From Paludibacteraceae bacterium (GTDB taxonomy: Bacteria > Bacteroidota > Bacteroidia > Bacteroidales > Paludibacteraceae), in assembly GCA_016285885.1 (NCBI GenBank), contig JAEERP010000017.1, positions 1 to 48,779 of the forward strand: DNA of 48,779 nt. The letters are read 5' to 3'. The notes under the pieces are model-generated. The model was not told the DNA's origin and did not search any database. It saw only the letters and a program-made list of their open reading frames with translations. Position 1 is the stretch's first letter; every line of letters begins with the position of its first letter. Shown piece by piece: positions 2 to 28,681 of this stretch. Position numbers and translations under genes: made by a program.

Positions 2-583
2 CTATATGTGAAGGGTAGAACCGTATTGGACGTCTCCGACGAGATGTTGCTCCTGCTCACTTCCCCGGGCACCAGCATCCACTTCGACAGAGTGGTCAAC
101 ATCGATGGGGAGGTCCCGACCAACACCATCACGTCCGACGAGATGGGCGGATACTCGCCGCTCAACTTCCGCGACAACAGCTACCGCTTCTACATCGGCT
201 CCGTCTTTATGGACAACGACCTCACGGTGAACGGCAAGATCACTTGCCACGACGAGATAGAGGTCTCCAAGCTCACGACAGACAACATGAACGTTAACCA
301 ACTAAAAGCCAAGGACATCCGTGTGAATCTCAACAACGCCGCCGACTATGTGTTCGAGGAGAACTACAACCTCAAACCGCTGAAGGAGGTGGAGAGCTAC
401 GTGAAGGAGAACAAGCACCTCCCGGGCATCCCGTCCGCCGCTGAGATCTCCCAAAACGGCATGAGCGTGTCGGAGATGAGCAACCTCTTGCTCGAGAAGG
501 TGGAGGAACTCACTTTGCACCTGATCCAATTGGAGAAAGAGAACGAGGCGTTGAAAGCGAAAGTTGAATCACTACAAAAATAA
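2..583 (+). CDS. C-terminal end of a fibre-like surface protein (partial, 5' end outside window)
   Basis: The frame is open from the first bases, so this is the last 193 codons of a longer gene; the GTG at 8 is probably not the start. The C-terminal third carries a stretch reading KEVESYVKENKHLPGIPS followed by a leucine-heptad coiled coil of about 35 residues ending at TAA 581-583. This ending is common in secreted 'tail fibre domain' proteins of Bacteroidota, where a coiled coil may hold a trimer; that role is inference and no phage genes are nearby. The upstream part looks beta-rich with repeated short turns. A protease gene starts 6 bp after the stop, which suggests co-transcription. A second copy with 3 amino-acid differences lies inverted at the other window end (48197-48778). 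The function of the full protein cannot be stated from this fragment. Confidence 0.75.
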   Translation, partial: LYVKGRTVLDVSDEMLLLLTSPGTSIHFDRVVNIDGEVPTNTITSDEMGGYSPLNFRDNSYRFYIGSVFMDNDLTVNGKITCHDEIEVSKLTTDNMNVNQLKAKDIRVNLNNAADYVFEENYNLKPLKEVESYVKENKHLPGIPSAAEISQNGMSVSEMSNLLLEKVEELTLHLIQLEKENEALKAKVESLQK

Positions 584-596
584 TTGAGCATGAAAA
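2..596 (+). repeat. Left arm of 595-bp terminal inverted repeat
   Basis: Bases 2-596 match the reverse complement of 48184-48778 with about 15 substitutions and no gaps counted by eye (about 97.5 % identity). Most changes are synonymous. The match covers the fibre-like coding module, its stop codon, the 6-bp spacer and the first seven bases of the following protease gene, then stops abruptly. Because it ends just inside the next start codon, the unit that was copied is the module plus its junction, not the protease. Confidence 0.9.
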
Positions 597-2218
597 GAAT
601 CGTATATCTTTTTCTCATGCTAATCATAACATGCCCGAGCACATTCTCAAACTCCCCGGATGAAGCATATTCCGGCAATAGAATGTTGGTGGTTTGTCAT
701 GAGAAATTCAAATCAGCGATGGAGCCCTTTGTGCTCCATAAAAATGAAATGGGACTCAAAACGGAGATGATGGTCATCCGAAAAATGGATTTCGACTCGC
801 TGCAAGGCATGGTCAGGGAGTACATAGGGAATCATGACGATACGAAGTTCCTACTCCTGGTGGGAGATATCGACTATGTACCTTACCGGTACTTCATCGG
901 GAAGCAAGTAACCGGTGCGACCGATCACACTTTCGCACCAGAGGGTACGGCGGGCGATTACATCACCGGACGATTCTCATGCGAGACGGTGGAAGAGGCG
1001 GAAGCGATGGTCACAAGATCCATTCTTTATGACCACATGAGAGCAGAACAAAGTTGGAGCAAGAACGCATTGATCATCGCCAGCAACAACATCTACTCCG
1101 ACCCCATGGGCGAAAAAGTCGGGTTAGACATACCAGATTACGAATTCGCGTTGAAACTTGAGGAGATATTAAAACCAGTGGGCCTATCCACCATCGTTTT
1201 GGTTGACAAGGACACCATAAATCTGATGGACAATAAGGAGGTGATCTCAACCATCAACAATGGTTGTTCGTTCATCAACTACACAGGTCATGGAGACCCA
1301 GAATCATGGGTGACTTCCAACTTCAGCAGGGAGGATGCGTGGAACCTGAAAAACGCGAATAAATGGCCATTCATATTCTCCACCGCCTGTCAAGTAGGCA
1401 ACTACATTGACACTTGCTTGGCAGAAGCATTCTTGCGGGCGAAAGATTCGGACGGATACCCAACAGGAGCCATCGCATGTTACGCATCCAGCGCAGACCA
1501 GTCGCTCGGATTCCCAATGTACGCCCAACAGTCATTCAATAAGTTCTGGGTGGAGGGTAAATATTTCACGTTTGGAGAGCTTTGCGAAAATGCGGCCCTC
1601 TCGATGTACGAGGTGGATCCAGCCGCAAACTACACGCATACCACATGGAACATATTCGGAGATCCTTCCGCAATCATCTTCCCATACAACGGGCAAATAA
1701 CTCCCTACGAATTGACCGTGTCCACAAGGATCAAAGGCGGAGAATACGACTTTAACGCCACCGAGCAAATCGTTGCCACCAACAAGATCTCCAACAATGC
1801 GGACGTGGAGTACCATGCTAACAGCGTGAAACTGAAAGACGGATTTAAGTTCAGCGGAAAACATCTCGTCGTATCGCCTCAGAAATATTATTCCGTTCCA
1901 GGAAACAATATGTGGCATTCTATCCTCTCGAATGATCAACCGAACGAGCTTACCGATCTCTCGCATAACGCCTCCGAAATGGACAAAGAGCCTCAACTCT
2001 TCCCTATCCCATCCAATGGGTTAATTACGGCTGACTTTGGGAACTTGGAAGGTGAGAAGACGGTGGTCATCACCGACATGAACGGCAAGGTCGTTTACCA
2101 AAACAGGTTTGACGAGCAAAAGAGCGACATCGACCTCTCAGCCCTTCAGAGCGGTGTTTACACCACAAGGATCATGACGTCACAAATGTCCGTCATCAAG
2201 TCTATAATTCTGAAATAA
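590..2218 (+). CDS. Gingipain-like C25 cysteine protease with T9SS sorting domain
   Basis: 542 residues from ATG 590; a TTG two codons upstream is less likely because the hydrophobic signal peptide (MKRIVYLFLMLII, ending near residue 22) begins at the ATG. The central domain matches peptidase family C25: catalytic His234 in YTGHGDPESW and Cys267 in STACQVGNY, with LLLVGDIDYVPYR upstream and NIFGDPS downstream. Residues about 385-435 hold a short repeat-like segment (ADVEY...VKLKDGFKF) also found in the C13 protease at the other end. The last 70 residues are a type A T9SS sorting domain (FPIPSNG, DMNGKVVY, SGVYTTRI). Expected location is the outer surface or medium after T9SS export. It follows the fibre-like gene with a 6-bp gap. 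The prodomain is short compared with gingipains, and substrate preference cannot be read from the sequence. Confidence 0.88.
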   Translation: MKRIVYLFLMLIITCPSTFSNSPDEAYSGNRMLVVCHEKFKSAMEPFVLHKNEMGLKTEMMVIRKMDFDSLQGMVREYIGNHDDTKFLLLVGDIDYVPYRYFIGKQVTGATDHTFAPEGTAGDYITGRFSCETVEEAEAMVTRSILYDHMRAEQSWSKNALIIASNNIYSDPMGEKVGLDIPDYEFALKLEEILKPVGLSTIVLVDKDTINLMDNKEVISTINNGCSFINYTGHGDPESWVTSNFSREDAWNLKNANKWPFIFSTACQVGNYIDTCLAEAFLRAKDSDGYPTGAIACYASSADQSLGFPMYAQQSFNKFWVEGKYFTFGELCENAALSMYEVDPAANYTHTTWNIFGDPSAIIFPYNGQITPYELTVSTRIKGGEYDFNATEQIVATNKISNNADVEYHANSVKLKDGFKFSGKHLVVSPQKYYSVPGNNMWHSILSNDQPNELTDLSHNASEMDKEPQLFPIPSNGLITADFGNLEGEKTVVITDMNGKVVYQNRFDEQKSDIDLSALQSGVYTTRIMTSQMSVIKSIILK

Positions 2219-2243
2219 AACCCTATTATTTTTTTATTCTTTG

Positions 2244-2283
2244 GGACGTGGCCACAGGATCTTTCCATGGCCACGTCCTTTTT
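2244..2283 (+). terminator. Intrinsic terminator after the C25 protease gene
   Basis: A 10-bp perfect stem (GGACGTGGCC / GGCCACGTCC) with a 15-base loop is followed by TTTTT. It lies 26 bp after the protease stop. Confidence 0.85.
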
Positions 2284-2308
2284 GCGGAAACACATCCGCA
2301 AATCATCG

Positions 2309-2338
2309 TTTGTTATTCCATCTGATTGTATATCTTTG
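2309..2338 (+). promoter_or_regulatory. Bacteroidota-type promoter for the 83-aa gene
   Basis: TTTG at 2309-2312 and TATCTTTG at 2331-2338 are 18 bp apart, matching the -33/-7 pattern of Bacteroidota primary sigma factor promoters. The ATG at 2362 is 23 bases downstream. Confidence 0.75.
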
Positions 2339-2361
2339 CGTTAACAATAACATGAAACACC

Positions 2362-2613
2362 ATGGGAATATTAGATCATCTAATGAAGATTTTCAAGGCA
2401 TTCGGTGAGGCTAGCTCAACCATAAGCAATGCCAATAACTATCTGGTGAACTTCACCGTAAAGGGCTCCGGAGATTGGGACGGTGAGCACTACATGCGCG
2501 TACCCATCGTAGGGGAGTACACGGATGCGCAGGCTATCAGGGCGTTGCGCATGATGAACGGGCTGGATAGCAACGTGGAGATCACCATCACACAAGTAGA
2601 GAAAGAGGACTAA
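2362..2613 (+). CDS. Small conserved-looking protein of unknown function
   Basis: 83 residues with no signal peptide. An amphipathic N-terminal helix (about residues 1-25) is followed by a beta-rich part (NYLVNFTVKGSGDWDGEHYMRVPIVG cannot be assigned to a family by eye) and an acidic tail. The gene has its own promoter (2309-2338) and its own terminator overlapping the stop, so it is a stand-alone transcription unit, which supports its being real. I do not recognise the family. Confidence 0.7.
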   Translation: MGILDHLMKIFKAFGEASSTISNANNYLVNFTVKGSGDWDGEHYMRVPIVGEYTDAQAIRALRMMNGLDSNVEITITQVEKED

Positions 2614-2645
2614 CCCGCTGAAGGATAGTCCTCTCTCTATTTTTT
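2604..2645 (+). terminator. Intrinsic terminator overlapping the stop of the 83-aa gene
   Basis: Stem AGAGGACTA (2604-2612) pairs with TAGTCCTCT (2626-2634), followed by CTCTAT and a T run. The left arm includes the last codons and the stop codon. Confidence 0.75.
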
Positions 2646-2696
2646 AAATTACGGAATGGTCCATGATGACCTTCCCGGAGCTTGTTTCACGCCCTT

Positions 2697-3485
2697 TTAT
2701 TGCGCCCAGATATCCGTATACTCGTCGTCGATCTTGAAGGATACGGGTTTGCACTGGGTATAGAGCGAAGGGCAATTCACCGCCTTGTAGTAAGGGCAAC
2801 CCTTCTGCTTGGTCACGCTGATTCCCCGCCAAGGGGTATCATAGCCTGAACTATAGACCTCGAGGTAGAGCACTGTCCCTTTAAGTGCATTGGAATCCTG
2901 GTATTTATTCACCTTGTGGGAACGCACCTGAATCGTGAAAGGCTGATTCGCCTTGTAAGCGTTCTCGGGCGTGGCACCCTCCATGTAGGTCGCCACAAGC
3001 TGGGGCGTGTAGTAGTCTCCGTACTGCGGGTTATACCTGTCCTTCAGGATTCTGGTCACGTCGGGAATGTTGTTGTCCACATTGACCATCTCGAGGCATT
3101 TGCTTCCCTCCTCTTTGTCATGATTGTAGATCTCGAAAGCCATGAGTTCGAGGAGCACCGCCACCTCTGGCTTGCCGCCATATTGTTCCTGCACAGCCTG
3201 CAATTGCGCCGCATTACGAGGGAAACCGCTGAACGTGAGGGTCGCTGTCTCACCCGGCTTCCAGGCACTAGGATTGATGCCCCCCTTCACCGTGATGGAT
3301 ATGGATTGGGAAGATTCCTGCACAAGCTGCGCCTTCGCCTCCTCCCCGCAGGAAGGAATTGCGGCGATAGTGGTCACCTCGTCCGTACTGTTCTGCCGCA
3401 CTGATTGTCCGTTCTCGCCCGTTTGGGCACACGCCCCGAAAAAGATGGCGGCGAAAAGAGAGATTGGATAAAAGATATGTTTCAT
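2697..3485 (-). CDS. Exported lipoprotein of unknown function
   Basis: 262 residues starting at ATG 3485, chosen because MKHIFYPISLFAAIFFGAC is a lipoprotein signal with the lipobox FGAC; the longer reading frame upstream adds a 46-residue extension that would bury the signal. After the lipid-anchored Cys comes a Gln/Ser/Thr-rich linker and then a beta-sandwich-like domain. The last part has a KGCPYYKAVNCPS segment with two cysteines. The gene is convergent with its left neighbour and divergent from the TPR gene on its right. No family recognised; a periplasmic or surface location is inferred from the lipobox. Confidence 0.75.
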   Translation of the reverse strand: MKHIFYPISLFAAIFFGACAQTGENGQSVRQNSTDEVTTIAAIPSCGEEAKAQLVQESSQSISITVKGGINPSAWKPGETATLTFSGFPRNAAQLQAVQEQYGGKPEVAVLLELMAFEIYNHDKEEGSKCLEMVNVDNNIPDVTRILKDRYNPQYGDYYTPQLVATYMEGATPENAYKANQPFTIQVRSHKVNKYQDSNALKGTVLYLEVYSSGYDTPWRGISVTKQKGCPYYKAVNCPSLYTQCKPVSFKIDDEYTDIWAQ

Positions 3486-3672
3486 ATTTCTACCGTTAAA
3501 GTCCAATGTCACACATTGTCGAATACTATTGCAATAATCGTAAAAAAACAGGTAATATGCAAGACAAATCCGTTTTTCCCTTTCCCCAACTCTCTTTGTA
3601 ACAGATGGAATGTTTTTTATCACACACCCCTATTTTTTATTTTTTGTTCTGCTTTTTGTCGCTTAGTTTCTG

Positions 3673-3680
3673 TATCTTTG
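3673..3680 (+). promoter_or_regulatory. -7 promoter element for the TPR-barrel run
   Basis: TATCTTTG at 3673-3680, 25 bases before the ATG at 3706, fits TAnnTTTG. TTTG tetramers occur upstream but at non-standard spacing, so only the -7 element is claimed. Confidence 0.65.
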
Positions 3681-3705
3681 CGAAAATGTATAATTGTAAA
3701 CACCA

Positions 3706-6700
3706 ATGAGAAAAAAACTCATTTTAGCATCCATGCTGGTTTCGGCGCAACTGATCTGTGCGCAGCAATCAAAGGATTACACACAAGCGGACAAACTATT
3801 CCATGAGGGGAAGGCCCTATATGACCAGGGGCACTTCAAGGCGGCGTACGAGCGTTTGAACGAGTACTTCCTGACATTGGACATGAAAGACCGTTCGCTC
3901 CGCCACATAGAGACCGAGTATTACATCGCATGTTGCACCTACGAGATGCAAAAAAGGGAGTCCGGCAGGAAAATGGAGGACTTCACTTCCAACAACCCTC
4001 AATCCACCTTGGCAAACAGGATCTATTTCCTATCCGCTTCCCAGAAATACGACCGACAGCTCTACAAGGAGGCTGTGGAGGACTTCAGCAAATGCGACAG
4101 GTTGCTCCTTTCCCAAAAGGAATCGGCAGACTACCTCTTCAAGCAGGGCTACTCCCTGTTGCAATGCAAAGAAATCGAAAGAGCTAGGAACACCTTCTCA
4201 ATCCTATTGAACCAACAATCCAAGTATAACGTGGCGGCGAAATACTACAAAGCCTACACGGATTATCTCCTGAAGGATTATGAAACCGCCCTCCCCGTCT
4301 TCGAGGAGTTGCAGCAGGTGCCCGAGTACGCACGGATCGTCCCTTACTACATCTTCCAAATCTATTACGCCCAAAAGCGTTACGACGAGGTGTTGGAGAC
4401 GGGCGAGGCGCTACTGAAGGCTGACCCGAACAACCCGAACAGCAAAGAGATCCATAGACTCTTGGGTGAATGTTATTACACGAAGAAGGACTACGCCAAC
4501 ACGATCAAGTACCTCTCGCTCTACCAGAAAGAGGCGGAGCAGGTGGTCCGCGAGAACATGTATATGTTGGGTAACTCCTATTACCAAACGGGCGACTACC
4601 AGAACGCAATCACATGCCTGCAGACAGTGACCGCCGTCGAGGATGCGATGGGACAGAACGCCTACCTCTACCTCGGATCCTGCTACGTCAAACAAAAGAA
4701 CATCACCAATGCGAGGTTCTGCTTCGAGTCGGCGAGCCGCATGGACTTCGATCCGAACGTGAAGGAGGAGGCATTCTACAACTACGCCCTGACCATCTAC
4801 GAGCAGTCGTACTCCCCTTTCAACGAGTCGATCACCGCCTTCGAGCGCTTCCTGGAGACCTTCCCGAACTCCCGCTACAGGGATAGGGTCTACAACTACA
4901 TGACCAACCTCTACTTGACGACGAAGAACTATGCGGAGGCCTATGCGTCCATCGAGAAGATCAAGGAGAAGAACATCCAGATCTACGAGGCACGCCAACG
5001 CATCGCCTACAGCATGGGTATCGAGAACTTCACGAACGGCAACTACGCCAAGGCCATCGAACACTTCAACACCTCCCTGAAGGACGGACAATACAACCGC
5101 ACGCTGGAGGCTTCCACCATCTTCTGGAGGGGCGAGGCCTACTACAAACTGAAGGATTTCAGCCACTCCGCCAGCGACTTCGAGACCTTCGTCAACTCCC
5201 CTGGCGCCAGAAGCTGCGAGGAGTTCACGCTCGCCCACTACAACATGGGTTACAGCCGCTTCACGGAGAAACGTTACTCGGATGCGTTGTCATGGTTCAG
5301 GAAGTACGTCAACATGGAGGAAAAGAACAAGACGTTGATCGCCGACGCCACCAACCGTATCGGCGACTGCTACTTCTTCCAACGTGACTTCAGCAATGCG
5401 GTGAAGAGCTATTCGCAAGTATTCTCGATGAAGGGACCGGGCGCAGACTACGCCTGCTTCCAACAGGCTTTCATCCAAGGATTGCAGAAGGACTACAATG
5501 GCAAGATCGCCACGCTGAACAAACTGCAGAAGACCTTCCCGCAGTCCGAGTACCTGGCGGACGCCAAGTATGAGATCGGCCGCGCTTACATCATGATGAA
5601 GCAAAACGACAAGGCCATCAAGACCTACGAGGCGCTGAACCGCGACTATCCGCACAGCCCATTGAGCAGGAAAGGTCGCCTACAGACCGCCATGCTCTAC
5701 GACGAGATGAACAACTCCAGCAAGTCCATCGCCACCTACAAGGAGATCGTCGAATACTTCCCTACCAGCGTGGAGGCCCATACCGCCTTGGAGAACCTGA
5801 AGCGTGTATACTTCGAGCAGGATAACATCCAAGGCTACGCCGATTACGTGGAGACCTTAGGCGGATTCGTCAAGTTCCAACGCTCCGAGCAAGACTCCCT
5901 CACCTACCTCGCCGCGGAAAACCTCTACGAGAAAGGGGAATACGCCAGGGCGGCGAAGAGCTTCAGCAACTTCTTGGAGAAGTTCCCGGAGAGCGTGTTC
6001 GTCAACAAAGCGCATTACAACCTCGGAGACAGCTATTATCAATCAGGCGATTTGGAAAATGCGAAAGAACAATTCTCCATCGTCGCCTCATTAGTCGGCT
6101 GTCCTGACAGAGAGAACGCCTTGGTGCTCCTCTCCAAGATACAATACGACAACAAGGAATACAAGGAGGCCATCACCAGCATGGAGACACTGGATAGCGT
6201 GGCCCAGAACCCAGAGAACAAAATGGCCGCCCGCCTGGGAATCATGCGTTGCCATAACCTATTGGGCAATCTGGAGCATACCGTCGATGCCGCCACCCTG
6301 CTCACCAACAGCGACAAACTAGACCCGGCGATCTACAGGGAGGCTCTCTTCACCCGCGCCAGGACATACGAGTTGTTGGGCGACTCCGCCTTGGCACTCG
6401 CGGACTATAAGGTGCTTTCGGACAACTGCATGGATGCCTACGGTGCGGAATCACAATTCATCAAACAAGAATACTCCTTCCGCGCAGGTGATCTGACAGG
6501 GACAGAGAAAGAGATCTTCGCCTTCATAGACAAAAACACACCTCACCAGTATTGGTTGGCCAAGAGCTTTATCCTCCTTTCCGACATCTACATGAAACAA
6601 GGGAAGATGTTCGAGGCGAAACAATACCTGTTGAGCGTCCGCGAGAACTACAACGGAAACGACGATATCGCCTCTGAGATAAGACTCAGACTGAACCGCA

Positions 6701-6741
6701 TCGAACAGAGTGAGAATGAAAAGATTGTTAATGAGAATTAA
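3706..6741 (+). CDS. Large exported TPR-repeat protein
   Basis: 1011 residues with a signal peptide (MRKKLILASMLVSAQLICAQ). Almost the whole mature protein is tetratricopeptide-like helical hairpins; many units show the spaced YxxGxxYxxxxxYxxA pattern, for example LGECYYTKKDYANTIKYL and GDSYYQSGDLENAKEQF. TPR proteins are protein-binding scaffolds; here the signal peptide puts it in the periplasm or at the outer membrane. Its stop codon TAATG overlaps the start of the next gene, an outer-membrane barrel, so the two are likely translated together and may form one envelope complex. That partnership is inference. A transport or assembly role at the outer membrane is plausible but not shown. Confidence 0.85.
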   Translation: MRKKLILASMLVSAQLICAQQSKDYTQADKLFHEGKALYDQGHFKAAYERLNEYFLTLDMKDRSLRHIETEYYIACCTYEMQKRESGRKMEDFTSNNPQSTLANRIYFLSASQKYDRQLYKEAVEDFSKCDRLLLSQKESADYLFKQGYSLLQCKEIERARNTFSILLNQQSKYNVAAKYYKAYTDYLLKDYETALPVFEELQQVPEYARIVPYYIFQIYYAQKRYDEVLETGEALLKADPNNPNSKEIHRLLGECYYTKKDYANTIKYLSLYQKEAEQVVRENMYMLGNSYYQTGDYQNAITCLQTVTAVEDAMGQNAYLYLGSCYVKQKNITNARFCFESASRMDFDPNVKEEAFYNYALTIYEQSYSPFNESITAFERFLETFPNSRYRDRVYNYMTNLYLTTKNYAEAYASIEKIKEKNIQIYEARQRIAYSMGIENFTNGNYAKAIEHFNTSLKDGQYNRTLEASTIFWRGEAYYKLKDFSHSASDFETFVNSPGARSCEEFTLAHYNMGYSRFTEKRYSDALSWFRKYVNMEEKNKTLIADATNRIGDCYFFQRDFSNAVKSYSQVFSMKGPGADYACFQQAFIQGLQKDYNGKIATLNKLQKTFPQSEYLADAKYEIGRAYIMMKQNDKAIKTYEALNRDYPHSPLSRKGRLQTAMLYDEMNNSSKSIATYKEIVEYFPTSVEAHTALENLKRVYFEQDNIQGYADYVETLGGFVKFQRSEQDSLTYLAAENLYEKGEYARAAKSFSNFLEKFPESVFVNKAHYNLGDSYYQSGDLENAKEQFSIVASLVGCPDRENALVLLSKIQYDNKEYKEAITSMETLDSVAQNPENKMAARLGIMRCHNLLGNLEHTVDAATLLTNSDKLDPAIYREALFTRARTYELLGDSALALADYKVLSDNCMDAYGAESQFIKQEYSFRAGDLTGTEKEIFAFIDKNTPHQYWLAKSFILLSDIYMKQGKMFEAKQYLLSVRENYNGNDDIASEIRLRLNRIEQSENEKIVNEN

Positions 6742-9692: not shown

Positions 9693-11950
<2,258 letters not shown>

Positions 11951-11954
<4 letters not shown>

Positions 11955-12595
11955 TCTACCAACTGACGGAACAGATAGCGTTCCCCGACCCACGGAACGG
12001 GGAGGAGGACGGACTTTTCGCCATCGGCGGAGACCTCTCCATCGACCGTCTCCTATTGGCCTACTCGAACGGTATCTTCCCATGGTACTCGTTCCGCGAC
12101 TCGGACATCCTATGGTTCTGCCCGATGAACCGCTTCGTCATCTTCCCCGACGAGATCCACGTGTCGCACTCCATGCGGACATTGATGAACAAGGGTCTCT
12201 ACCATGTCACGATCAATCAGGACTTCGCCTCCGTGATCAAGAACTGCGGAGACCTCCGCAAGGAGATGGAGGGGGCATGGTTAGGCGATGACATGACGAA
12301 GGCATACACGGCGCTACACGAACAGGGGTTCGCGGCGAGCGTCGAGGTGTGGGACCAAGAGGAGAAGCTGGTCGGCGGACTCTACGGTGTGACCATCGGA
12401 AGGTGTTTCTTCGGAGAGAGCATGTTCTCCCTCGTGCCAAGCGCATCCAAACTGGCGCTGATCTTCCTGGCTAAAGTGTTTGCGCAAAACGGCGGTGTGA
12501 TGATCGATTGCCAACTGGAGACCCCCCACCTCAAGAGCATGGGCGGACGATACATCCCCTACGACGAGTACATGAAGTATGTGAGGATGGAATGA
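11951..12595 (+). CDS. aat: Leucyl/phenylalanyl-tRNA-protein transferase
   Basis: 214 residues, normal for Aat. The enzyme adds Leu or Phe from charged tRNA to N-terminal Lys or Arg of proteins, creating N-degrons read by ClpS. Family motifs seen are FPDPR, GLFAIGGDLS, LLLAYSNGIFPWYS, GAWLGDDM, GGLYGVTIGRCFFGESMFS and DCQLETPHLKSMGG. The start ATG overlaps the clpA stop. The last 26 codons and the following 14 bases (12516-12605) are repeated perfectly at 13549-13638, with foreign-looking cargo between, so the 3' end of this gene behaves like an integration site while the gene stays intact. Confidence 0.95.
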
Positions 12596-12605
12596 AAAAA
12601 AGCGG
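12516..12605 (+). repeat. Direct repeat copy A: 3' end of aat
   Basis: 90 bases, identical to 13549-13638 at every position I compared. It begins inside aat and ends 10 bases after the TGA, at AAAAAAAGCGG. This copy belongs to the functional gene. The flanks differ completely on the left, and on the right both continue into AT-rich sequence. Confidence 0.97.
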
Positions 12606-12623
12606 TAGGTACTATTATGTTTT

Positions 12624-13319
12624 TTATTTTTTTGTAGTAACAATACTTCTTTCTACTACAGGTCTTACGGGTTTCCCTTCATACCTATGACAAGTATTTA
12701 AATTTGTATCAATCATATTATCAACAAAAAACATCTCGTGTGCAAACCTGTTTTTACTTAATGTTGAGGTCCAATATCTTCCTGCTTGATTCACCCCATA
12801 TTCCATATTCTCACTCTTTACTCCAGCACATGGCAAAAATATTTGATTGCCATTTTTCCCTCTTACTATATATCCATATACATCCTTTCCGTTATATCTC
12901 TCCACCCAAATCCATTCACATTCGGTTACCAACTCTATATATTCTTTATTCGTCGGCATTCTCCACGGACTACCCCAAACACACGTCGCAGCATCATCTA
13001 TCGGTTCCAACACTGTGAGACTATCCACCTCAGAAGGGAAATCAATCTGCCATGTATAGTAAGTGTTTACATACTTGGATAAAACTGGGTATCCAAATTT
13101 ATATTCTTTCCAACCATAACACTCCTTCGCATTTGTTTCCCCCCAAGAGAAATAATCACCCGATTCGTCTTCCGCACATGCTCCTATATTCTTCGTTGCC
13201 CATAAAACAGAGAGTCCTAAATCAACATACTCTTGTCCATTTATTTCGCTCATATTCTGTGACCAGCATGAACAAAAACAACCCAATAACAATATTATAG
13301 AACAAATTATACGATTCAT
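12624..13319 (-). CDS. FISUMP-domain secreted or lipid-anchored protein (cargo between aat repeats)
   Basis: 231 residues. The signal peptide is MNRIICSIILLLGCFCSCWSQ, with a cysteine-rich end that could be a lipobox (LLGC). The rest is one Fibrobacter succinogenes major paralogous domain: YVDLGLSVLWATKNIGA, GDYFSWGETNAK and GSPWRMPTNKEYIELV are the typical motifs, and RYWTSTL and the C-terminal GKPVRPV close the domain. These proteins are surface-associated and mostly of unknown function. The gene is convergent with aat, is clearly AT-richer than aat, and is the only gene between the two 90-bp repeats, so it looks like acquired cargo. Confidence 0.85.
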   Translation of the reverse strand: MNRIICSIILLLGCFCSCWSQNMSEINGQEYVDLGLSVLWATKNIGACAEDESGDYFSWGETNAKECYGWKEYKFGYPVLSKYVNTYYTWQIDFPSEVDSLTVLEPIDDAATCVWGSPWRMPTNKEYIELVTECEWIWVERYNGKDVYGYIVRGKNGNQIFLPCAGVKSENMEYGVNQAGRYWTSTLSKNRFAHEMFFVDNMIDTNLNTCHRYEGKPVRPVVERSIVTTKK

Positions 13320-13548
13320 TTGAACATCAGATTAATAATATACAATAATATGGATCGAGAATTCAACGGTATTATAATTCATGCCATTCTATTCTGTTCT
13401 AAGCAATTGATCCACAAATATTTTCGCTCAAATAACATATTTCATCTTATATATTTGTGTCATGATACACATTTCTTAAGTTAAAGGTAGCGGTTTTTAA
13501 CAACAAACCAAAGATTCATGTTGTTATTTTCAGCGATATAAAACTTAT
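13320..13548. other. AT-rich intergenic stretch upstream of the FISUMP gene
   Basis: 229 bases with no credible gene. A plus-strand TATATTTG (13450-13457) fits a -7 element but points toward the aat remnant, where no gene follows. I see no clear minus-strand promoter for the FISUMP gene by eye. Confidence 0.5.
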
Positions 13549-13628
13549 TGGAGACCCCCCACCTCAAGAGCATGGGCGGACGATACATCCCCTACGACGA
13601 GTACATGAAGTATGTGAGGATGGAATGA
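13549..13628 (+). pseudogene. aat: aat 3'-end remnant
   Basis: Codes in frame for the last 26 residues of Aat and its TGA, but an in-frame stop (TAA 13539-13541) lies just upstream and there is no start, so it cannot make an Aat protein. It exists only as the repeat copy. Confidence 0.9.
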
Positions 13629-13638
13629 AAAAAAGCGG
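13549..13638 (+). repeat. Direct repeat copy B: duplicated 3' end of aat
   Basis: Perfect 90-base copy of 12516-12605. The two copies bracket 943 bases, giving a 1033-bp repeat-plus-cargo unit. Direct repeats of a gene's 3' end on either side of cargo are the arrangement left by site-specific integration (attL/attR) or by recombination of a circular cassette; no recombinase gene is in the unit. Confidence 0.97.
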
Positions 13639-13655: not shown

Positions 13656-14327
13656 TTATTCTGTTAAAATTTCACCAAGTGCAAATATTTGATTCACTTT
13701 ATCGTAATCATAAAACTTCTCTGTATGATTCAAATATATCAAACTACCGTCTGTCTCATCTTTCTCCACAATAAATTCATCACCCAACTTCAAATCTTTT
13801 TTATGTGTGTAGGATATCCATCCGAAATAGTTACCTATTTCATCCTTCATTTTTCTTAAGTTATATGTTTGAACACACCCATAGTCTGGCTCAAAATGTT
13901 TTAACATACACCTCAAAATAGACAATAAAGTGTCTGTGTCAAATAAATCTGTGGCAACATATTCAAATATACATAGTGCGGTAAAATATCCTTCTAAATC
14001 ATTAGAATAGATCTCTAAATTCATCGGTTTTTCCTCTCTGTCTTTATAAAGATAAATAGTATACCCTATGTTACTATACTCTCTTTCATCCATGTCTCCT
14101 TTATAAAAACGTAACAATAACTTTTTTATGTACGTTGGGGAATTTTCGAATTTCCTACTTAGAGCATCCTTTCTTCTTTTCCCTAAATTACACCAACCCT
14201 TCAAGACTGGAGAAATTGTTTCAAAATCTACCAAGAAATCGTAAACAAAATTCGACATCTGGTCAATCGTCATCGGATTATCCCAATAGAATCGAACACT
14301 TACTTTATCATTCTTACTCTCTTCCAT
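13656..14327 (-). CDS. Probable orphan immunity protein, Imm52-like
   Basis: 223 residues, no signal peptide or membrane segment, so cytoplasmic. The N-terminal part has the spacing I associate with immunity family Imm52: an aromatic-W near the start (VRFYWDN, W15), a helix, then TISPVLKGWCNLGKRRKDAL. The C-terminal part is beta-rich with YFGWISYTHKK. Imm52 proteins neutralise toxins delivered by neighbouring cells. No toxin gene is adjacent, so if the call is right it is an orphan immunity gene. It sits directly behind the aat repeat, in the same orientation as the FISUMP gene, and is AT-rich relative to the core genes. A clear promoter lies at 14418-14447. The family assignment is from memory of motif spacing and is moderate. 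Confidence 0.6.
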   Translation of the reverse strand: MEESKNDKVSVRFYWDNPMTIDQMSNFVYDFLVDFETISPVLKGWCNLGKRRKDALSRKFENSPTYIKKLLLRFYKGDMDEREYSNIGYTIYLYKDREEKPMNLEIYSNDLEGYFTALCIFEYVATDLFDTDTLLSILRCMLKHFEPDYGCVQTYNLRKMKDEIGNYFGWISYTHKKDLKLGDEFIVEKDETDGSLIYLNHTEKFYDYDKVNQIFALGEILTE

Positions 14328-14336: not shown

Positions 14337-14411
14337 TTATTTTGTTAATTCTTGTTGATCACCGTTTGGGCGATGCTGGCCCAGGGCGTCGCGGAGTATG
14401 TTTTTCTTCAT
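14337..14411 (-). CDS. Possible 24-codon leader peptide or gene remnant before the immunity gene
   Basis: An ATG at 14411 opens 24 codons (MKKNILRDALG... QQELTK) ending in TAA 9 bases before the immunity gene start, and it lies immediately downstream of the promoter at 14418-14447. Its bases are GC-rich, unlike the AT-rich gene it precedes. It may be a translated leader, or the beginning of a resident gene cut short when the cargo arrived. The promoter's -7 element sits only 7 bases from its ATG, so it would have a very short leader. Confidence 0.35.
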   Translation of the reverse strand: MKKNILRDALGQHRPNGDQQELTK

Positions 14412-14550: not shown

Positions 14551-15462
14551 CTATTCCAACTTGTATATACACACATCTTCCCCCCAGCATGTTGCGTTCA
14601 GATTTAACAACATCATTTCTTTCTCAAGCTTATGATAAAGCGGAGAATCGGGCGAGATGCAATTCCGTATCAGCTCTTGGAAAGCTAATCCATGATATCT
14701 GAAATAGCACCCATTATAAGAAAATGTCCAAATATAGCCATTCGGGTCAATGTGGGAATTATTAACCGCTGTAAAAATCCCTCCCCAAGCGTCCACGAAT
14801 TGGATTTCAAGGAGATTCCACATTGGCGCATTCCCTGCTGGAAGTGACTCCTTTCTCATTTTTTCTATCACATCTGTGGCAGATAAGGGTTTACTTAGGA
14901 AATAGGGCCCAGGAAGTTTATTTGAATTTAACAACGAATCGAACCGTTGTATATCTTCCTCCTGAATGTTCATACGGTCTAATGAGATTGAGTCTGTCGG
15001 GGTGTGTTTCACCTCATTCGCCAAGGAAGTCCACCAAGAAGTGGGAATGCAAACAGTATCCTTAGTCGACGACAGCCACAAACTATCACGCAGATTTTCA
15101 ATGCGATAAAGTTTCGCAGTATCATATGTCTGTTCCCATATGTTTATTTCGCGGACATTCAAACGCATGATGGCTTTTTCAAACCAATCTGCCAAAATAG
15201 TATTATCAGTTCTTCCTGTCTTGCACGAAACGCATCTACTATCTATGAGATTTTCGGGATTTATTGGTCCTAGGAATCTGTTGAGGACAGTATAATATTC
15301 ATGCAAGTCCTCGTCATAAATAAAAGATTGGGAGTGGCTGATACAGTCCGCTTCTAGTATACAATTATTTTGTATAGAGCGGAAGAAATACCCCAAATAA
15401 ACACATATGACACAAAGTGCCAATGCGCAGAGCACATTAAACGATACTTTTTTGGCTTTCAT
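14551..15462 (-). CDS. Membrane-anchored protein of unknown function
   Basis: 303 residues from ATG 15462; a TTG ten codons upstream is less likely. A basic start (MKAKKVSF) leads into one membrane segment (about residues 8-27, with VLCALALCVICVYLGYFF), leaving about 275 residues outside the cytoplasmic membrane. These contain six cysteines, including a SRCVSCK pair, and no motif I recognise. It follows the immunity-like gene in the accessory island and is moderately AT-rich, so it is probably acquired. A role linked to the immunity gene is possible but unsupported. Confidence 0.65.
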   Translation of the reverse strand: MKAKKVSFNVLCALALCVICVYLGYFFRSIQNNCILEADCISHSQSFIYDEDLHEYYTVLNRFLGPINPENLIDSRCVSCKTGRTDNTILADWFEKAIMRLNVREINIWEQTYDTAKLYRIENLRDSLWLSSTKDTVCIPTSWWTSLANEVKHTPTDSISLDRMNIQEEDIQRFDSLLNSNKLPGPYFLSKPLSATDVIEKMRKESLPAGNAPMWNLLEIQFVDAWGGIFTAVNNSHIDPNGYIWTFSYNGCYFRYHGLAFQELIRNCISPDSPLYHKLEKEMMLLNLNATCWGEDVCIYKLE

Positions 15463-15564
15463 TTCCGTTAAATATTTCTTGCGGCTCGGCAAAGATTCAC
15501 TGTTGCCAGTGACAGGATTTAAGCCACTTGGGGGTTTTATCGAGAATAAGCTATAACCTAACTC

Positions 15565-16326
15565 CTATTCGAAGTTAATGTTAAAGATGATCAGCCTTGA
15601 CGTCAACCGAGACATGGCATTGGTGAACTTCATGTCTTCAATATTAGCGATCTCAGGCCTATCACGTTCCAACACATCACCCAGTCCGAAGTACAATTTG
15701 AGTTCAGGCGCCAGTTTGAAATAAGGCAAATAGAAATCTATACCTATACCTACCTCGACACCGTAGTCAATTTGTTTCAACATAATAGGGTCTTCGCTCG
15801 AGCGGCCCATGTCGACCGTGAATGCGCCACCCGCCAATAGGTATGGACGATAGTTATTCTTCCTCTGTCCGCGGAACTTAAGCGTAAGCGGGAACTCCAT
15901 CATATTGGACTGGACGGTTATCTTACCATCCTCCCTCTCCTCACCCTGTGCATTCCTAAAGCATAGCTGGCGAGAGTTGAAGAAAAGGGTCGGCGTGAAA
16001 CGCAGATCCAACCATGAGAAGATACGCAGGTCCGAAATGATTCCCACAGAGAAACCAGGAGACAACTTAGTGTCCTCCCCGAACCATATCTCTCCCACCT
16101 CTTCACTGCCTTCGGGGATCAACTCCCCATCGGGAGTGCTCACCACACCCGAGTTGGTCACATTGAAATCCATGGAATTGAGTCCCAATATGAAACCGAA
16201 GTGGTATAGCCTATTATCGGCATTGATAAGATTCATCGTCCTGCCATGAGCATATTCCGCCTTGGCTGTCGAATAACTTGATAGGAGAGCTCCTATGAAG
16301 AGTATGCTAAAAACAATCTTTTTCAT
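15565..16326 (-). CDS. porT: PorT, outer-membrane component of the type IX secretion system
   Basis: 253 residues from ATG 16326 (MKKIVFSILFIGALLSSYSTAKA signal peptide); the longer GTG form adds five residues before the signal. The mature protein is a small beta barrel. The segments YRPYLLAGGAFTVDMG and YGVEVGIGIDFYLPYFKLAPELK, followed by FGLGDVL, match what I know of the PorT/SprT family. PorT is needed for T9SS export in Porphyromonas and Flavobacterium. At least five proteins in this window end in T9SS sorting domains, which is consistent. The gene is last in a leftward series of envelope genes and borders the accessory island. Confidence 0.82.
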   Translation of the reverse strand: MKKIVFSILFIGALLSSYSTAKAEYAHGRTMNLINADNRLYHFGFILGLNSMDFNVTNSGVVSTPDGELIPEGSEEVGEIWFGEDTKLSPGFSVGIISDLRIFSWLDLRFTPTLFFNSRQLCFRNAQGEEREDGKITVQSNMMEFPLTLKFRGQRKNNYRPYLLAGGAFTVDMGRSSEDPIMLKQIDYGVEVGIGIDFYLPYFKLAPELKLYFGLGDVLERDRPEIANIEDMKFTNAMSRLTSRLIIFNINFE

Positions 16327-16401
16327 CTTTACGATTCTCACCTTTGAGGTTGTTATGTTTGATATTAACGTTTTTCCTCCCTTTTTATTGTCTATTCCAG
16401 T

Positions 16402-23452: not shown

Positions 23453-23483
23453 TTTGTTTTTTGAATTATATTCCGTATCTTAG
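23453..23483 (+). promoter_or_regulatory. Promoter of the first surface paralogue
   Basis: TTTG (23453-23456), 19 bases, TATCTTAG (23476-23483); the -7 deviates from TAnnTTTG at one position (A for T). The same TATCTTAG begins the conserved block in the second paralogue at 26428-26435, where the -33 is weak. Confidence 0.65.
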
Positions 23484-23574
23484 ATATGTTCTGTCATTCT
23501 AAGGAGACATGCCGCCACGCATTGTGGAATGGCAGGTGGTTTTATTTATTGTACTATCATAAATTAGTTCGCTT
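23484..23574 (+). promoter_or_regulatory. Conserved 5' leader with nested hairpin (paralogue 1)
   Basis: The leader is nearly identical to 26436-26527. A nested hairpin at 23510-23534 pairs TGCC with GGCA outside and CCAC with GTGG inside. Its exact conservation in front of two genes with divergent centres suggests a regulatory or translation role. No known riboswitch class is recognised. Confidence 0.55.
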
Positions 23575-26286
23575 ATGGAACAATTGAGGCAATTAGGCGG
23601 TCGCCTTCTCGGGAAGAAGCGCGTCGCGGTCATTTTAGGGTTATTGGGGCTTTACTGTCCCTCTTCGCTTTGGGCGGAGAAGTTGGACACCACCTTCGTG
23701 TTGGACATGGTGATAGATAGTACACCGTGCTATTTTACCCAATACAATAACAAAGGACGAATTACCCAATACGACATATACCAGAATAGTTCTTCCTACT
23801 CATCTCTCAGCACAACAAGCTATGCTCTCATCGACAATGACGACTTCTCTCACATTAACATAGGTTACATCACCGACATGACAGGGGAAAAGGTGGACAC
23901 AATCTACTACATTCGCGATAAAGTGACGAAACAATGGATAGAAAAAAAAGATTTTCCCAATTATAAGGGCTATAGTCCCGATAAAATAGAACTTCGTTTC
24001 TATAATAACGGGATGTTGGAATCCATCAATGGTTCCGAATTCGTTAATTCCTCTACGTCAGGTCACGTTGAATTCTCGGAATCTGGTGAATTAAAGGAAT
24101 ATAGTAATGTTTTTCATTTATGTTACACATGGGATATAGATGAAGATTATCTTATGAACTACGATTCGTTCGGAAATATAACCCTTGAATATAGGTTAAA
24201 TAGTAGCTCACATAAGGGAGGCGTTGCGGAATCGAGTTCATCTTATGTCAAAACAATCTATAAGAACCAATACGACAACAAATATAATTTGATTGAGGTA
24301 GAGGAATTCACAGAATCCAGGAGAAGAGAGTCTAGCCTCGACGCTTATTCCTCTGATTACGATGTGAAAGGTACATCTCGTCGCAAGATGGAACATAGCT
24401 ACGACAGCCAAAATAGAAGAATAAAAACCATAACATATGATTACATAGGTTCAAATTATGTCCTGAGAGATAGTACCATATACTCGTACGGGCACGCATT
24501 ACACGAAGGAGAGGCTTGCCTCTTGTCCGTACTCGTTAGTGATAATCCGATAGATAGTTTCTCTCCCGACAAGTACCACTACGACTTTCCGAACGTAGTA
24601 TGCGGAGACTTGAAATACATAACGCCATACGGTTCCGCTGTTGAAGAATCATACAATGCCCAAACGAGCACGTTGTCAGTTACCATCAAAGGGTCAGATG
24701 GTCATGTGAACACCTACACGTTCACCCTGAAAAAATCGGAATCCTTTATGACGGCATTGAGCCCTGACTCCGTATTGTCCATTGATTTTTCCCCGGAGAA
24801 ATATCAATACAACGAATTAGAGAATTACTATATATCATACTTTATTTTCTATCAATCGGGCTATACGGTTAATTATTTTAGCATAAGTTCAGATGACACT
24901 CTGAAGAATGGGGAGAAATCCGCACGTATACATTTCGATGTCTCTGAGGATGCGCATGCGATCCACTCCTACGATGCCCGGAATGGTATTTTCACTATTA
25001 CTGTCACGGGCTCAGATGTCCAAAAAAATCCGGACAACAAACACACATACACTTTCAAAACAAAAAAGATAGAAAAGGCCTACATTTCTTCATTGCGTTA
25101 CAACAACAAGGAATTTGAAGGATTCTCTCCTGACGTGTATGATTATGAGATGCCGGCTGACGCCACATTAGCTGAAACTAGCAGCTGGGATTTCGATGTG
25201 GAGACATATCCTGAAGACCTTTACACCATAAAGGAATACTCCCATTCAACCCACACGATGTACATAACCTTACTTGCCATGCACAAGTATTGTGGTAATG
25301 CTGACACCCTGGCCCTCTATCAATTCCATTACAAGCCAGATCTTCGTGAAGTATACGATAAACGCATCAACTCTTACTCGAATATAGTGAATGGATTCTC
25401 CGAGAATGTATTCGAGTATGAATTGTGGGGGAAATATTATCCAGGATGTTTAGGATATACTGTTTGGTATTCGTCGGATAGTATCAATATAGACGAATCA
25501 TTTGACGAGCAAACCAACATCCTCACTGTCTCAGCATCCTTTAAGAATGACAGCATAAGGGTGACCAACTACCGCTTCCACTTCCCGGAAGGATCCGAAG
25601 AAATAATTCCTCCGACCCTGTACATCTCCACAAAAGGAGGGAATGCACTGGATGGTATAATTGTAGACAATACCGAATTCGAGGTAATCGGATTCTTCTA
25701 TAGCTCTTTTTGCCAATGCGAAGTGGTCGATGGGAAAATCGTGAGCGATTCGTATGATGAGTCAACCAATGTGTGGACCATCATAGTAACGGATGATTTC
25801 GGCTCCAGCCAGACGACATACCACATCCACTTCAAACACCCATTCCTCTCCTCCTTTACCATCAAAGGGGAGCCACTGGATACCTTCTCGGCGGACACTT
25901 ATGACTATCTGTTTGACATGGAGTATGATTCAAGTACGGTCTCATACGAGCTGCCAGACGATGTTGACGCAACAGAATCCTTCAATAAAACGACCAACAT
26001 CCTTACGATTCGTCTCACGCCAAGAAAAACTTATGGAACGGTTGAATACAAGTTCCACTTCCGCCCTACAGACGGTGTCGACGACTTCTTGGGCGACCAG
26101 GTGAACCTCTATGTCACGGACAAGACCATCTGCGTTGATGGCGCGACGGAGCCAATCAGCGTCTATGATCTTCTCGGTACTTTGGTCGGCATTAGCCGTG
26201 GCGAGGAGGCCCGCATCCCTGTGAGTCAGGCGGGCGTCTACGTGGTGAAGGCTGGAGGGAAAGCCGCGAAGGTGGTGGTGAAGTGA
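23575..26286 (+). CDS. T9SS-exported repeat protein, paralogue 1
   Basis: 903 residues. The N-terminus is a long basic signal region (MEQLRQLGGRLLGKKR then a hydrophobic core ending near LWAE). Residues about 50-310 have YD-repeat-like strands (YDSFGNIT, YDSQNRRIKTI). Residues about 325-850 hold about five beta-sandwich-like units, each marked by an FSPxxYxYxxP motif near residues 328, 404, 516, 606 and 771 and ending in a strand such as NTYTFTL or YKFHF. The last 70 residues are a T9SS sorting domain ending GVYVVKAGGKAAKVVVK. Surface location is expected; function is unknown. It shares leader, first about 45 codons and last about 85 codons with the following gene, while the middle is different. 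Confidence 0.85.
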   Translation: MEQLRQLGGRLLGKKRVAVILGLLGLYCPSSLWAEKLDTTFVLDMVIDSTPCYFTQYNNKGRITQYDIYQNSSSYSSLSTTSYALIDNDDFSHINIGYITDMTGEKVDTIYYIRDKVTKQWIEKKDFPNYKGYSPDKIELRFYNNGMLESINGSEFVNSSTSGHVEFSESGELKEYSNVFHLCYTWDIDEDYLMNYDSFGNITLEYRLNSSSHKGGVAESSSSYVKTIYKNQYDNKYNLIEVEEFTESRRRESSLDAYSSDYDVKGTSRRKMEHSYDSQNRRIKTITYDYIGSNYVLRDSTIYSYGHALHEGEACLLSVLVSDNPIDSFSPDKYHYDFPNVVCGDLKYITPYGSAVEESYNAQTSTLSVTIKGSDGHVNTYTFTLKKSESFMTALSPDSVLSIDFSPEKYQYNELENYYISYFIFYQSGYTVNYFSISSDDTLKNGEKSARIHFDVSEDAHAIHSYDARNGIFTITVTGSDVQKNPDNKHTYTFKTKKIEKAYISSLRYNNKEFEGFSPDVYDYEMPADATLAETSSWDFDVETYPEDLYTIKEYSHSTHTMYITLLAMHKYCGNADTLALYQFHYKPDLREVYDKRINSYSNIVNGFSENVFEYELWGKYYPGCLGYTVWYSSDSINIDESFDEQTNILTVSASFKNDSIRVTNYRFHFPEGSEEIIPPTLYISTKGGNALDGIIVDNTEFEVIGFFYSSFCQCEVVDGKIVSDSYDESTNVWTIIVTDDFGSSQTTYHIHFKHPFLSSFTIKGEPLDTFSADTYDYLFDMEYDSSTVSYELPDDVDATESFNKTTNILTIRLTPRKTYGTVEYKFHFRPTDGVDDFLGDQVNLYVTDKTICVDGATEPISVYDLLGTLVGISRGEEARIPVSQAGVYVVKAGGKAAKVVVK

Positions 26287-26311
26287 CACATTGAAAAATT
26301 TCTCTAACAAA

Positions 26312-26352
26312 GGGGGCGTCGGATTTTCGAATATCCGATGCCTCCTCATTTT
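26312..26352 (+). terminator. Intrinsic terminator after surface paralogue 1
   Basis: GGCGTCGGAT (26315-26324) pairs with ATCCGATGCC (26333-26342), followed after CTCC-like bases by ATTTTT. The second paralogue is therefore probably a separate transcript. Confidence 0.8.
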
Positions 26353-26427
26353 TATGCGCCAATCGGCATGAGATGGTTTATTTTACATAAATTATCCCCA
26401 AAAAATTTTTATACCAAATTTTTTTCG

Positions 26428-26527
26428 TATCTTAGATATGTTCTGTCATTCTAAGGAGACATGCCGCCACGCATTGTGGAATGGCAGGTGGTTTTATTTA
26501 TTGTACTATCATAAATTTAGTTCGCTT
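26428..26527 (+). promoter_or_regulatory. Conserved promoter/leader with nested hairpin (paralogue 2)
   Basis: This repeats the block of 23476-23574 with one extra T near 26518 and almost no other change. The hairpin is at 26462-26486. The extra T changes the upstream reading frame relative to paralogue 1, which shows that the leader is not conserved as coding sequence and fixes the start at ATG 26528. Confidence 0.6.
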
Positions 26528-28681
26528 ATGGAACAATTGAGACAATTAGGCGGTCGCCTTCTCGGGAAGAAGTGTGCCGCAACCATTTTAGGGTTATTGG
26601 GCCTCTGCTGCCCCTCTTCGCTTTGGGCGGAGAAGTTGGACACCACCTTCGTGTTGGACATGGTGATAGATAGTACGCCGTGCTATTATGCCAGATACAA
26701 TAACACTGGACAAAGAGTCGCATACGGGATCTACAGGAATGGAGGAGATTTATACCTCGGAAATTTTTTCCGCATTAATACAGGTTATATTACCAACGAA
26801 AATGGTGACACATTAGAAACTCTCTTATACAAATGCGATAATGTCACGAAGCAGTGGTTCCAGGACATCGTTTCAGGACAAAAATTTGAATGCCACGACA
26901 ATGGTATGCTTAGTTATGCCCAATATACTGATTCCACTAGTCAGTCTCAATATTTATGGGATCATGTAACAAATGAACAAATAGAAAGGAGAGGCACATA
27001 TCTTGATCACAGAATAATAAGGGCTTTTGGCCCAGATGGTTATTGCCTTTCTTTTAGTTATCTTGACGAGTCATATTGGACACAAAATGGTTTCTTGCAA
27101 GTGGAAACTTATAGATCGGAAGATACTCAGTACGATGCTCTTGGGAATATTTACTCCCAACATAATATCTATGTTAATGGCCATTATTTGGACGCGAACG
27201 TTATTATCAATACATACGATGACAGACAGAATCTGATTTCATCCCACACTATAGGTCATTATGATAATACAATAGAGGAATACACATATGACAGCCTTGA
27301 CAGAAGGATTAAAGCCGTGAGATATGATTCCACGGAATCGGGTTTCATCATGGAAGATAGTGTCGTGTACACTTATGGACACTCGTTGAGGGAAGGGGAA
27401 CCATACATTTTGCTTGTATATGATGGAAAATACCAAGTAGATAGTTTTTCTGTCGAACAATTCCACTACGATTTTTCGAAATCCATCCCATATTCGAAAT
27501 TTAGTTATATTGCTCCGAGCGAAACTACCACTGATGAAACATTCGACGCAGAGACAAACACGTTGTCTGTCACAGTCAAAGGAGCAAATTATGATCATGA
27601 TTCGACAGATGCGAACACCTACACTTTTGTCCTAAAGAAGATTGAGTCATACATAACTGGCATGTCTTTTAAGACCACTAAGTCTTCGCCTTGGCAGCCC
27701 GTTGAGGATTTTTCTCCGGGAAAATACTCGTATGATATGTTCAGAGACTTTGACTTTATATTTTGTTCATCATCTTCTATCTATCTGCAAAGAGAAGACT
27801 CGGCCATACTTGTGTCTTGGTCTGAATCAGAAAACGCAAAGGTTTTGTCGTCTCATGATGAGCAAACTGGCATTATTACTTTAGAAGTTAGGGGGGCTGA
27901 TTATGATAAGAATCCGAATAACGTGCATGTTTATACATTTGCGGTTAATAAAAAGATTGATCCATATATCTCTTCTTTGCAAATCCATGGGAACGATTTT
28001 GATGGCTTTTCTCCGAACAAGTACGATTATGAATTGCCTCTCAACTTTATTGTAGGGTATTCACTTGCTAGTTCTGATTGTAGCGTATCTGTTTATCCTG
28101 AAGAATTCAGCGCTTTGTATCCTCGTGTGGTAAAAGAGTATGACTATAAGAAACACACGTTGATTTGTGACATCTACGGAACCACCTATCGTTTTCACTT
28201 TCAACCAAGCCTAATGCGTATTGACATCACTAAAGATTCCGTCTCATTGTCGATACCTGACTTTTCTCCTGACAAATTAGAATATGAATTGCCGTATGAA
28301 TACAAGGATTTATCCTTTAAATATTATAGTGGAAATGATCCAGAATTTAATTATACGACTATAAAGGAGTCTTTCAATGATTCCACCAACACTCTCACCC
28401 TTTCGGTTTTCTTTGATGAGGATAGTTCAACCGTGACGGAATATCACATCCACTTCCGCCCTACAGACGGTGTCGACGACTTTCTGGGCGACCAGGTGAG
28501 CCTCTACGTCATGGACAAGGCCATCTGTGTCGATGGTGCGACGGAGCCAATCTTCGTCTATGACCTCCGAGGCACTTTGGTCGGCACCGGTCGTGGTGAG
28601 GAGGTCCGCATCCCTGTGCGTCAGACGGGCGTCTACGTGGTGAAGGCTGGAAGGAAAGCCGCAAAGGTGGTGGTGAAATGA
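26528..28681 (+). CDS. T9SS-exported repeat protein, paralogue 2
   Basis: 717 residues from ATG 26528 by homology to paralogue 1; a longer reading frame begins at 26438 but runs through the leader. It has the same layout: signal region MEQLRQLGGRLLGKK, YD-repeat-like strands (YDALGNIY, YDSLDRRIKAV), four FSP-type units (FSVEQFHYDF, FSPGKYSYDM, FSPNKYDYEL, FSPDKLEYEL) and a T9SS sorting domain ending GVYVVKAGRKAAKVVVK. The termini are close to those of paralogue 1 while the centre is diverged and shorter by about 185 residues, as expected for family members that exchange ends. Surface location expected; ligand unknown. Confidence 0.85.
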   Translation: MEQLRQLGGRLLGKKCAATILGLLGLCCPSSLWAEKLDTTFVLDMVIDSTPCYYARYNNTGQRVAYGIYRNGGDLYLGNFFRINTGYITNENGDTLETLLYKCDNVTKQWFQDIVSGQKFECHDNGMLSYAQYTDSTSQSQYLWDHVTNEQIERRGTYLDHRIIRAFGPDGYCLSFSYLDESYWTQNGFLQVETYRSEDTQYDALGNIYSQHNIYVNGHYLDANVIINTYDDRQNLISSHTIGHYDNTIEEYTYDSLDRRIKAVRYDSTESGFIMEDSVVYTYGHSLREGEPYILLVYDGKYQVDSFSVEQFHYDFSKSIPYSKFSYIAPSETTTDETFDAETNTLSVTVKGANYDHDSTDANTYTFVLKKIESYITGMSFKTTKSSPWQPVEDFSPGKYSYDMFRDFDFIFCSSSSIYLQREDSAILVSWSESENAKVLSSHDEQTGIITLEVRGADYDKNPNNVHVYTFAVNKKIDPYISSLQIHGNDFDGFSPNKYDYELPLNFIVGYSLASSDCSVSVYPEEFSALYPRVVKEYDYKKHTLICDIYGTTYRFHFQPSLMRIDITKDSVSLSIPDFSPDKLEYELPYEYKDLSFKYYSGNDPEFNYTTIKESFNDSTNTLTLSVFFDEDSSTVTEYHIHFRPTDGVDDFLGDQVSLYVMDKAICVDGATEPIFVYDLRGTLVGTGRGEEVRIPVRQTGVYVVKAGRKAAKVVVK

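Follow-up and report, generated by a model that had tools for sequence, protein, structure and literature searches.

Organization of the aat region

The window, by which we mean the whole 48,779 bp contig analysed here, contains an intact aat gene (leucyl/phenylalanyl-tRNA-protein transferase; GC 0.57) on the forward strand at 11951–12595, identified by Pfam PF03588 and, above its cut-off, by NCBIfam TIGR00667. The final 80 bp of aat, including the stop codon, and the next 10 nt make up a 90 bp sequence (12516–12605) that is found again, in the same orientation and with 100% identity, at 13549–13638. The spacing of the two copies is 1,033 bp, and by a rough estimate approximately 3e-44 exact 90-mer pairs would be expected in the window by chance. 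A search of the whole 3.75-Mb assembly returned no third match. In the second copy, 27 codons of aat survive within an open frame of 28 aa, and the repeat restores its target gene, as aat is whole upstream and only the remnant lies downstream. The original prediction, made from the sequence of the window, was therefore correct in describing an exact direct duplicate of the aat 3′ end, with one copy ending a working gene and the other a leftover. It had also read the perfect match as a sign of recent origin, and this fails. The same 90 bp are 100% identical in three related genomes (G001, G004 and G008), so a perfect match says little about how young the duplicate is.

The unique DNA between the copies (12606–13548) is 943 bp with a GC content of 0.34. 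It includes a single leftward open reading frame (12624–13319, reverse strand) for a protein of 231 aa, and to that extent the AT-rich leftward FISUMP gene that had been predicted is present. The family assignment is weak, as the FISUMP model scored 19.1 bits, below the curated cut-off of 41.65, and the gene is called FISUMP-like here. Its product is a predicted lipoprotein, from a lipobox motif spotted by eye. No paper on FISUMP was found in the open-licence literature, and a DNA search found no second copy of the insert within the source genome, G000. At 13548/13549 the insert meets aat position 12516 in a candidate non-homologous joint, seen in the sequence and by comparison with the relatives described below.

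The next gene (13656–14327, reverse strand) matches the immunity-protein family Imm52 (PF15579) with 26.7 bits, just above the cut-off of 25, and has no NCBIfam match. The defence-like neighbour that had been proposed is thus borne out by a match that only just exceeds the cut-off; toxin families were not among the matches of the eight window proteins scanned with Pfam. A possible short Rhs-core remnant on the reverse strand (14338–14390) was read by eye only, and tblastn with Rhs cores detected no Rhs-core segment in the window. An uncharacterised gene without Pfam or NCBIfam matches (14551–15492, reverse strand) is followed by porT/sprT (15565–16341, reverse strand; NF052311). We propose that aat is the conserved left border of a variable slot, and a candidate homology anchor, with porT as the conserved right border.

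The ends of the contig (window 2–596 and 48184–48778) are mutual inverted repeats, 97.5% identical over 595 bp, and this is probably a repeat that broke the assembly.

The aat–porT interval in related genomes

The same-genus set comprised 16 genomes including G000, and a match to aat was found in 14 (G002 and G007 had none). Named relatives of this Bacteroidales include rumen records. In 5 of the 13 aat-bearing relatives (G004, G005, G008, G009 and G013), aat and a single copy of the 90 bp are followed directly by the Imm52 gene, which by DNA match is the slot resident in these five genomes, and the 943 bp are absent. Given these empty sites, the approximately 1,033 bp comprising the FISUMP-like gene and one repeat copy are most simply an insertion, as had been predicted. 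The DNA downstream of aat starts to differ between genomes at the right edge of the repeat.

The content next to aat varies among the genomes, and the expectation that it would differ was confirmed. In G001, aat and one repeat copy are followed by approximately 9.5 kb before porT, so that porT there also lies beyond a region with Rhs genes. This slot includes three Rhs-core matches (TIGR03696) on contig C37, with low-GC frames lying between them, and a 1,053-aa open frame that carries an Rhs core. A run of N just past the 1,053-aa frame (11235–11409 of that stretch) means that the frame may be cut. No DNA match to Imm52, which is either diverged or absent, was found at the slot in G003, G006, G010, G011, G012, G014 and G015. 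In G012, DNA that matches the window from 20961 onward begins approximately 200 bp after aat, and in G014 aat is directly followed by another protein that matches the FISUMP-like cargo, with 38% identity.

Proteins matching the cargo protein itself, rather than the FISUMP model, were found in 16/16 genus genomes. The closest (65% identity) is also in G014. Two genes upstream of it is a gene that shares 48% identity with the low-GC gene adjoining aat in G001. The place of these G001 and G014 genes by Rhs tips suggests an immunity role for them; the G014 gene returned no Pfam match. In G000, a cargo-matching protein lies 1.4 kb from an Rhs core on contig C6; among the matches listed in this genome, most are not near an Rhs match, and such proteins are common. 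The aat–porT interval is best explained as a variable slot, in which toxin and immunity genes (Rhs, Imm52) and FISUMP-like genes are gained and lost between species via homologous flanks.

A region of raised identity surrounds the slot

When the window was compared with G004, G005, G009 and G013, nucleotide identities of 0.91–0.99 were found at approximately 10.5–15.5 kb. Outside this island, whose approximate ends we place at 10300 and 15500, identity was mostly 0.74–0.93, with a few 500-bp bins of up to 0.98 in the gene at 3706–6741; upstream of 10 kb, the comparison covered G004, G009 and G013. The identity breaks inside clpA and again around porT. Third-codon identity was 0.87–0.99 in the 3′ part of clpA, aat, the Imm52 gene and 14551–15492, and 0.51–0.82 in the other window genes compared, apart from two values for the 5′ part of clpA (0.88 in G001, and 0.84 over 45 codons in G005).

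The raised identity may simply reflect clpA and aat being slow genes. However, the Imm52 gene and 14551–15492 are not core genes, and, among the window genes compared, non-core genes that are more alike than their core neighbours point to recent homologous exchange. On these sequence comparisons, the slot and its flanks look to have been exchanged between species by homologous recombination. Homologous exchange via conserved flanks fits this setting better than a dedicated integration site at aat served by a recombinase.

A second unit at recA

The comparison supports a similar unit at a second housekeeping gene. In G000 contig C6 (9829–10367), a 51-bp copy of the DNA upstream of recA brackets a single nucleotidyltransferase gene. 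We take the copied 51 bp to be the recA promoter, from their position and a Bacteroidetes -7 motif, and the bracketed gene may use a recA-type promoter. Two copies are present in G000, G004, G013 and G001, and one in G005 and G009. G004 shares the G000 spacing of 488 but has two mismatches between its copies. In G013 and G001 the copies are approximately 880 apart, and additional DNA accompanies the same gene. The one copy in G005 has both outer flanks of the G000 unit, and this site may be an empty site or the product of a deletion between copies. The one copy in G009 has the right end of the unit. Identity between the recA contig and G004, the only relative used for this comparison because the stretches of the others end earlier, is approximately 0.97 up to 14.7 kb and then 0.79, 0.93 and 0.89 across the next three genes. 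As recA is itself conserved, the identity evidence is weaker here than at aat. The aat and recA repeats have no common core beyond a 7-nt A run.

A survey of 967,221 bases of G000 for exact repeats of at least 35 nt at spacings of 250–6,000 found four pairs in which both 60-nt outer flanks were less than 0.5 identical. The survey was biased, with 776 kb taken regardless of Rhs (the first 400 kb of C13 and all of C8) and the other 191 kb being the window or chosen for Rhs or recA. Two of the pairs are those at aat and recA. The pair at C8:24258 has other repeats nearby on the same offset, 283 bp in total, and the pair at 23474 of the window, contig C20 of G000, is the start of a longer gapped repeat that heads two paralogous genes. 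The part of the window from 23471 to 28681 is occupied by tandem paralogs (23575–26286 and 26438–28681); the repeats at the starts of the two genes are 93% identical and those at the ends 88%. The idea that such units are a general habit of this genome was dropped, as the 776 kb sampled independently of Rhs gave no isolated pair; pairs at 63.7–67 kb of C13 are tandem paralogs.

A third candidate (C33:3126–3201 and 5238–5313) was not counted because the element is also found elsewhere, repeated between Rhs tips. This terminator-like element of 76 bp is present between the Rhs tips of C33 (1170–5313) in three copies (83–100% identity), and also on other contigs and in relatives. It has AAAAAAGCG, on the opposite strand, in common with the aat repeat; a shared 9 nt was reached in 5/300 shuffles. 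AAAAAAGCG is perhaps part of a terminator.

Origin of the duplicated aat end

The explanation we prefer, with a probability of about 0.7, is that a donor fragment, bearing an aat end together with the gene next to it in the donor, was added via aat homology and one non-homologous join. The repeat, the empty sites, the variable slot content and the identity island are observed; the single event, its direction and the joining step are inferred. A fragment carrying an aat end and the FISUMP-like gene would have been added to the slot content instead of replacing it, with the aat homology anchoring the fragment and a non-homologous join attaching its other end at a point 90 bp upstream of the aat border. 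The fragment could have circularised and entered through a single crossover, for which the homology would be only 90 bp, or only one of its ends could have been joined, in the manner of homology-facilitated illegitimate recombination. Either route would produce the order aat, FISUMP-like gene, aat end, Imm52, and the direction could be either way, the FISUMP-like gene entering a strain with Imm52 or the reverse. As the neighbours of aat diverge at the right edge of the repeat, no special cut is needed there. Genes of the comEC and dprA families are present and compatible with DNA uptake, yet of 14 control genomes, 10 and 11, respectively, have them too. A search of 300 family genomes from a larger group, at two candidates per genome among the matches listed, gave no donor in which aat adjoins this FISUMP-like gene. 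Similar short flanks just outside the copies were rejected as proof of two alleles; this similarity is too weak, being matched by 150/5,000 shuffles and 30/900 insert segments, and by 70/5,000 shuffles with the G004-type flank.

Published cases give this joining step some precedent. In the excerpted text of PMC3240628, 56/60 Escherichia coli clones were PCR-positive for a duplicated lacZ end, which was 109–950 bp long in 14 sequenced clones, and the other 4 clones were ascribed to homology-facilitated illegitimate recombination. According to the same excerpt, one-sided events have so far generally deleted rather than duplicated DNA, their joints usually have 3–10 bp of microhomology, and they occur 100 to a million times less often than homologous recombination does. 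One-sided recombination has been proposed for Vibrio immunity arrays, and is also called quite rare, in the excerpted part of PMC5361080.

The original prediction had been of a different kind, an integration site at the aat 3′ end for a ladder of small cassettes, mobilised by a recombinase encoded elsewhere or by recombination between the repeats. In one form of this idea, the 90 bp are the attachment site of a small, non-autonomous integrative element, whose 1,033-bp circle would be inserted, and aat restored, by a tyrosine recombinase from another locus. Such an element would leave empty sites in relatives and, at the 3′ end of a gene, a repeat that keeps the gene whole, and four PF00589 matches are present elsewhere in the genome (contigs C1, C42, C34 and C7). 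Against it, the PF00589 profile, the only one used, found no tyrosine recombinase on the window contig, and no exact inverted repeat of at least 8 nt was found near the insert ends in a test for a transposon. There is no ladder beyond the two copies, and among 91 aat loci an extra aat-end copy was found only in that of the window (94 were given, with seven contigs entered twice and some from Clostridia; 79/94 had at least 2 kb downstream). Short matches of 20–44 bp in L020, L058, L069, L097, L118 and L119 fall outside the aat match, beyond its end. In the recA unit, the DNA copied is from upstream of the gene and is not a gene 3′ end, and it has no core in common with the aat repeat. A plasmid or phage origin was discarded as there was no plasmid or phage match, and the joint at 13548/13549 was not found in viral contigs. 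We conclude that these results give no support for a dedicated cassette system at aat, and we regard the integrative element as unlikely. The duplicated aat end looks like a scar left by ordinary exchange of DNA, and not like the work of a new machine for capturing genes.

An assembly artefact is also improbable. The assembly is split into 46 contigs, but an artefact would need the novel joint at 13548/13549, between AAAACTTAT and TGGAGACC, which should not be creatable by strain mixing alone, as mixing would give only branch choices at the repeat. A similar footprint also recurs at recA in four genomes. Capture of a foreign fragment at a staggered break, in which the two strands are nicked at sites 90 nt apart and the gaps are filled, would give a long target duplication and account for a sharp, perfect repeat with unlike outer flanks. 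However, it leaves unexplained both the setting of raised identity and variable content and the coincidence of the right edge with the point where the aat neighbours diverge, and we consider it very improbable. Template switching at replication, with the fork leaving aat at 12605, copying a FISUMP-like locus and returning at 12516, would produce the same anatomy but has very little to recommend it, as a DNA search of the genome found no second copy of the insert and the source would have to be lost or on incoming DNA.

If one-joint addition via aat homology is correct, the repeat would be a scar from which additive gain of a gene in an immunity-gene slot can be read, tied to exchange of the flanking housekeeping genes between species. 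Should scars of this kind be common among slots, the step by which immunity arrays grow would become testable. A broader and doubtful possibility is that the ends of conserved genes beside toxin and immunity slots (the aat 3′ end and the recA upstream DNA) are reusable docking sequences in the genus, with genes added without loss and each leaving a docking copy. Cargo at recA would then gain the recA upstream region, and the repeats would permit the loss of units or their exchange between species.

Comparison with known systems

Such a footprint at aat is not named among the best-ranked open-licence literature matches, which is no proof of its absence. The orphan immunity arrays of the Vibrio cholerae T6SS, as described in the excerpted text of PMC5361080, are built by sequential displacement and are alike in that immunity genes pile up by horizontal transfer beside conserved DNA, and in that one-sided homologous and illegitimate joining is the step proposed, there as here. 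In those arrays the anchor is the upstream region of an effector–immunity module and effectors are displaced, whereas at aat the anchor is a housekeeping gene at its downstream end and a copy of that end is left. The feature of one-sided recombination sought in relatives, an empty site with a single copy of the anchor, is the arrangement in the 5/13 described above. The E. coli lacZ single-crossover insertions, in the part of PMC3240628 excerpted, likewise have foreign DNA bracketed by two gene-end copies, but they involve a laboratory plasmid and 109–950 bp rather than a natural chromosomal locus and 90 bp.

Arrays of displaced Rhs tips consist of tandem toxin-tip and immunity modules, and the three Rhs-core matches in G001 resemble them; such arrays are also mentioned in PMC5361080. 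Unlike these arrays, the window has Imm52 and FISUMP-like genes and no Rhs segment by tblastn; an Rhs core in the slot, the mark of an Rhs toxin/immunity slot, is thus present in relative G001 and absent from the window. The Bacteroidales rAID arrays, in the excerpted text of PMC12247911, share low-GC, co-oriented short genes that include an immunity protein, but the window contig is without a PF00589 tyrosine recombinase. The same text calls the origin of rAID arrays an area of active research.

Elsewhere in G000, 17 leader copies precede Rhs tips on contigs C34 (L156 and L157), C12 (L158) and C1 (L161). The leaders have a common start, CTTGTCAGCCCCC...CTGACAACGGCGAAGCC, with small differences, and the left flank AAGTCTATTGATTGGAACG is common to 8/17 while the others differ. 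The intact Rhs gene on C34 has no leader. One leader array begins approximately 200 bp from a divergent tyrosine recombinase gene (C34:32560–33714), a layout like that of an integron or rAID.
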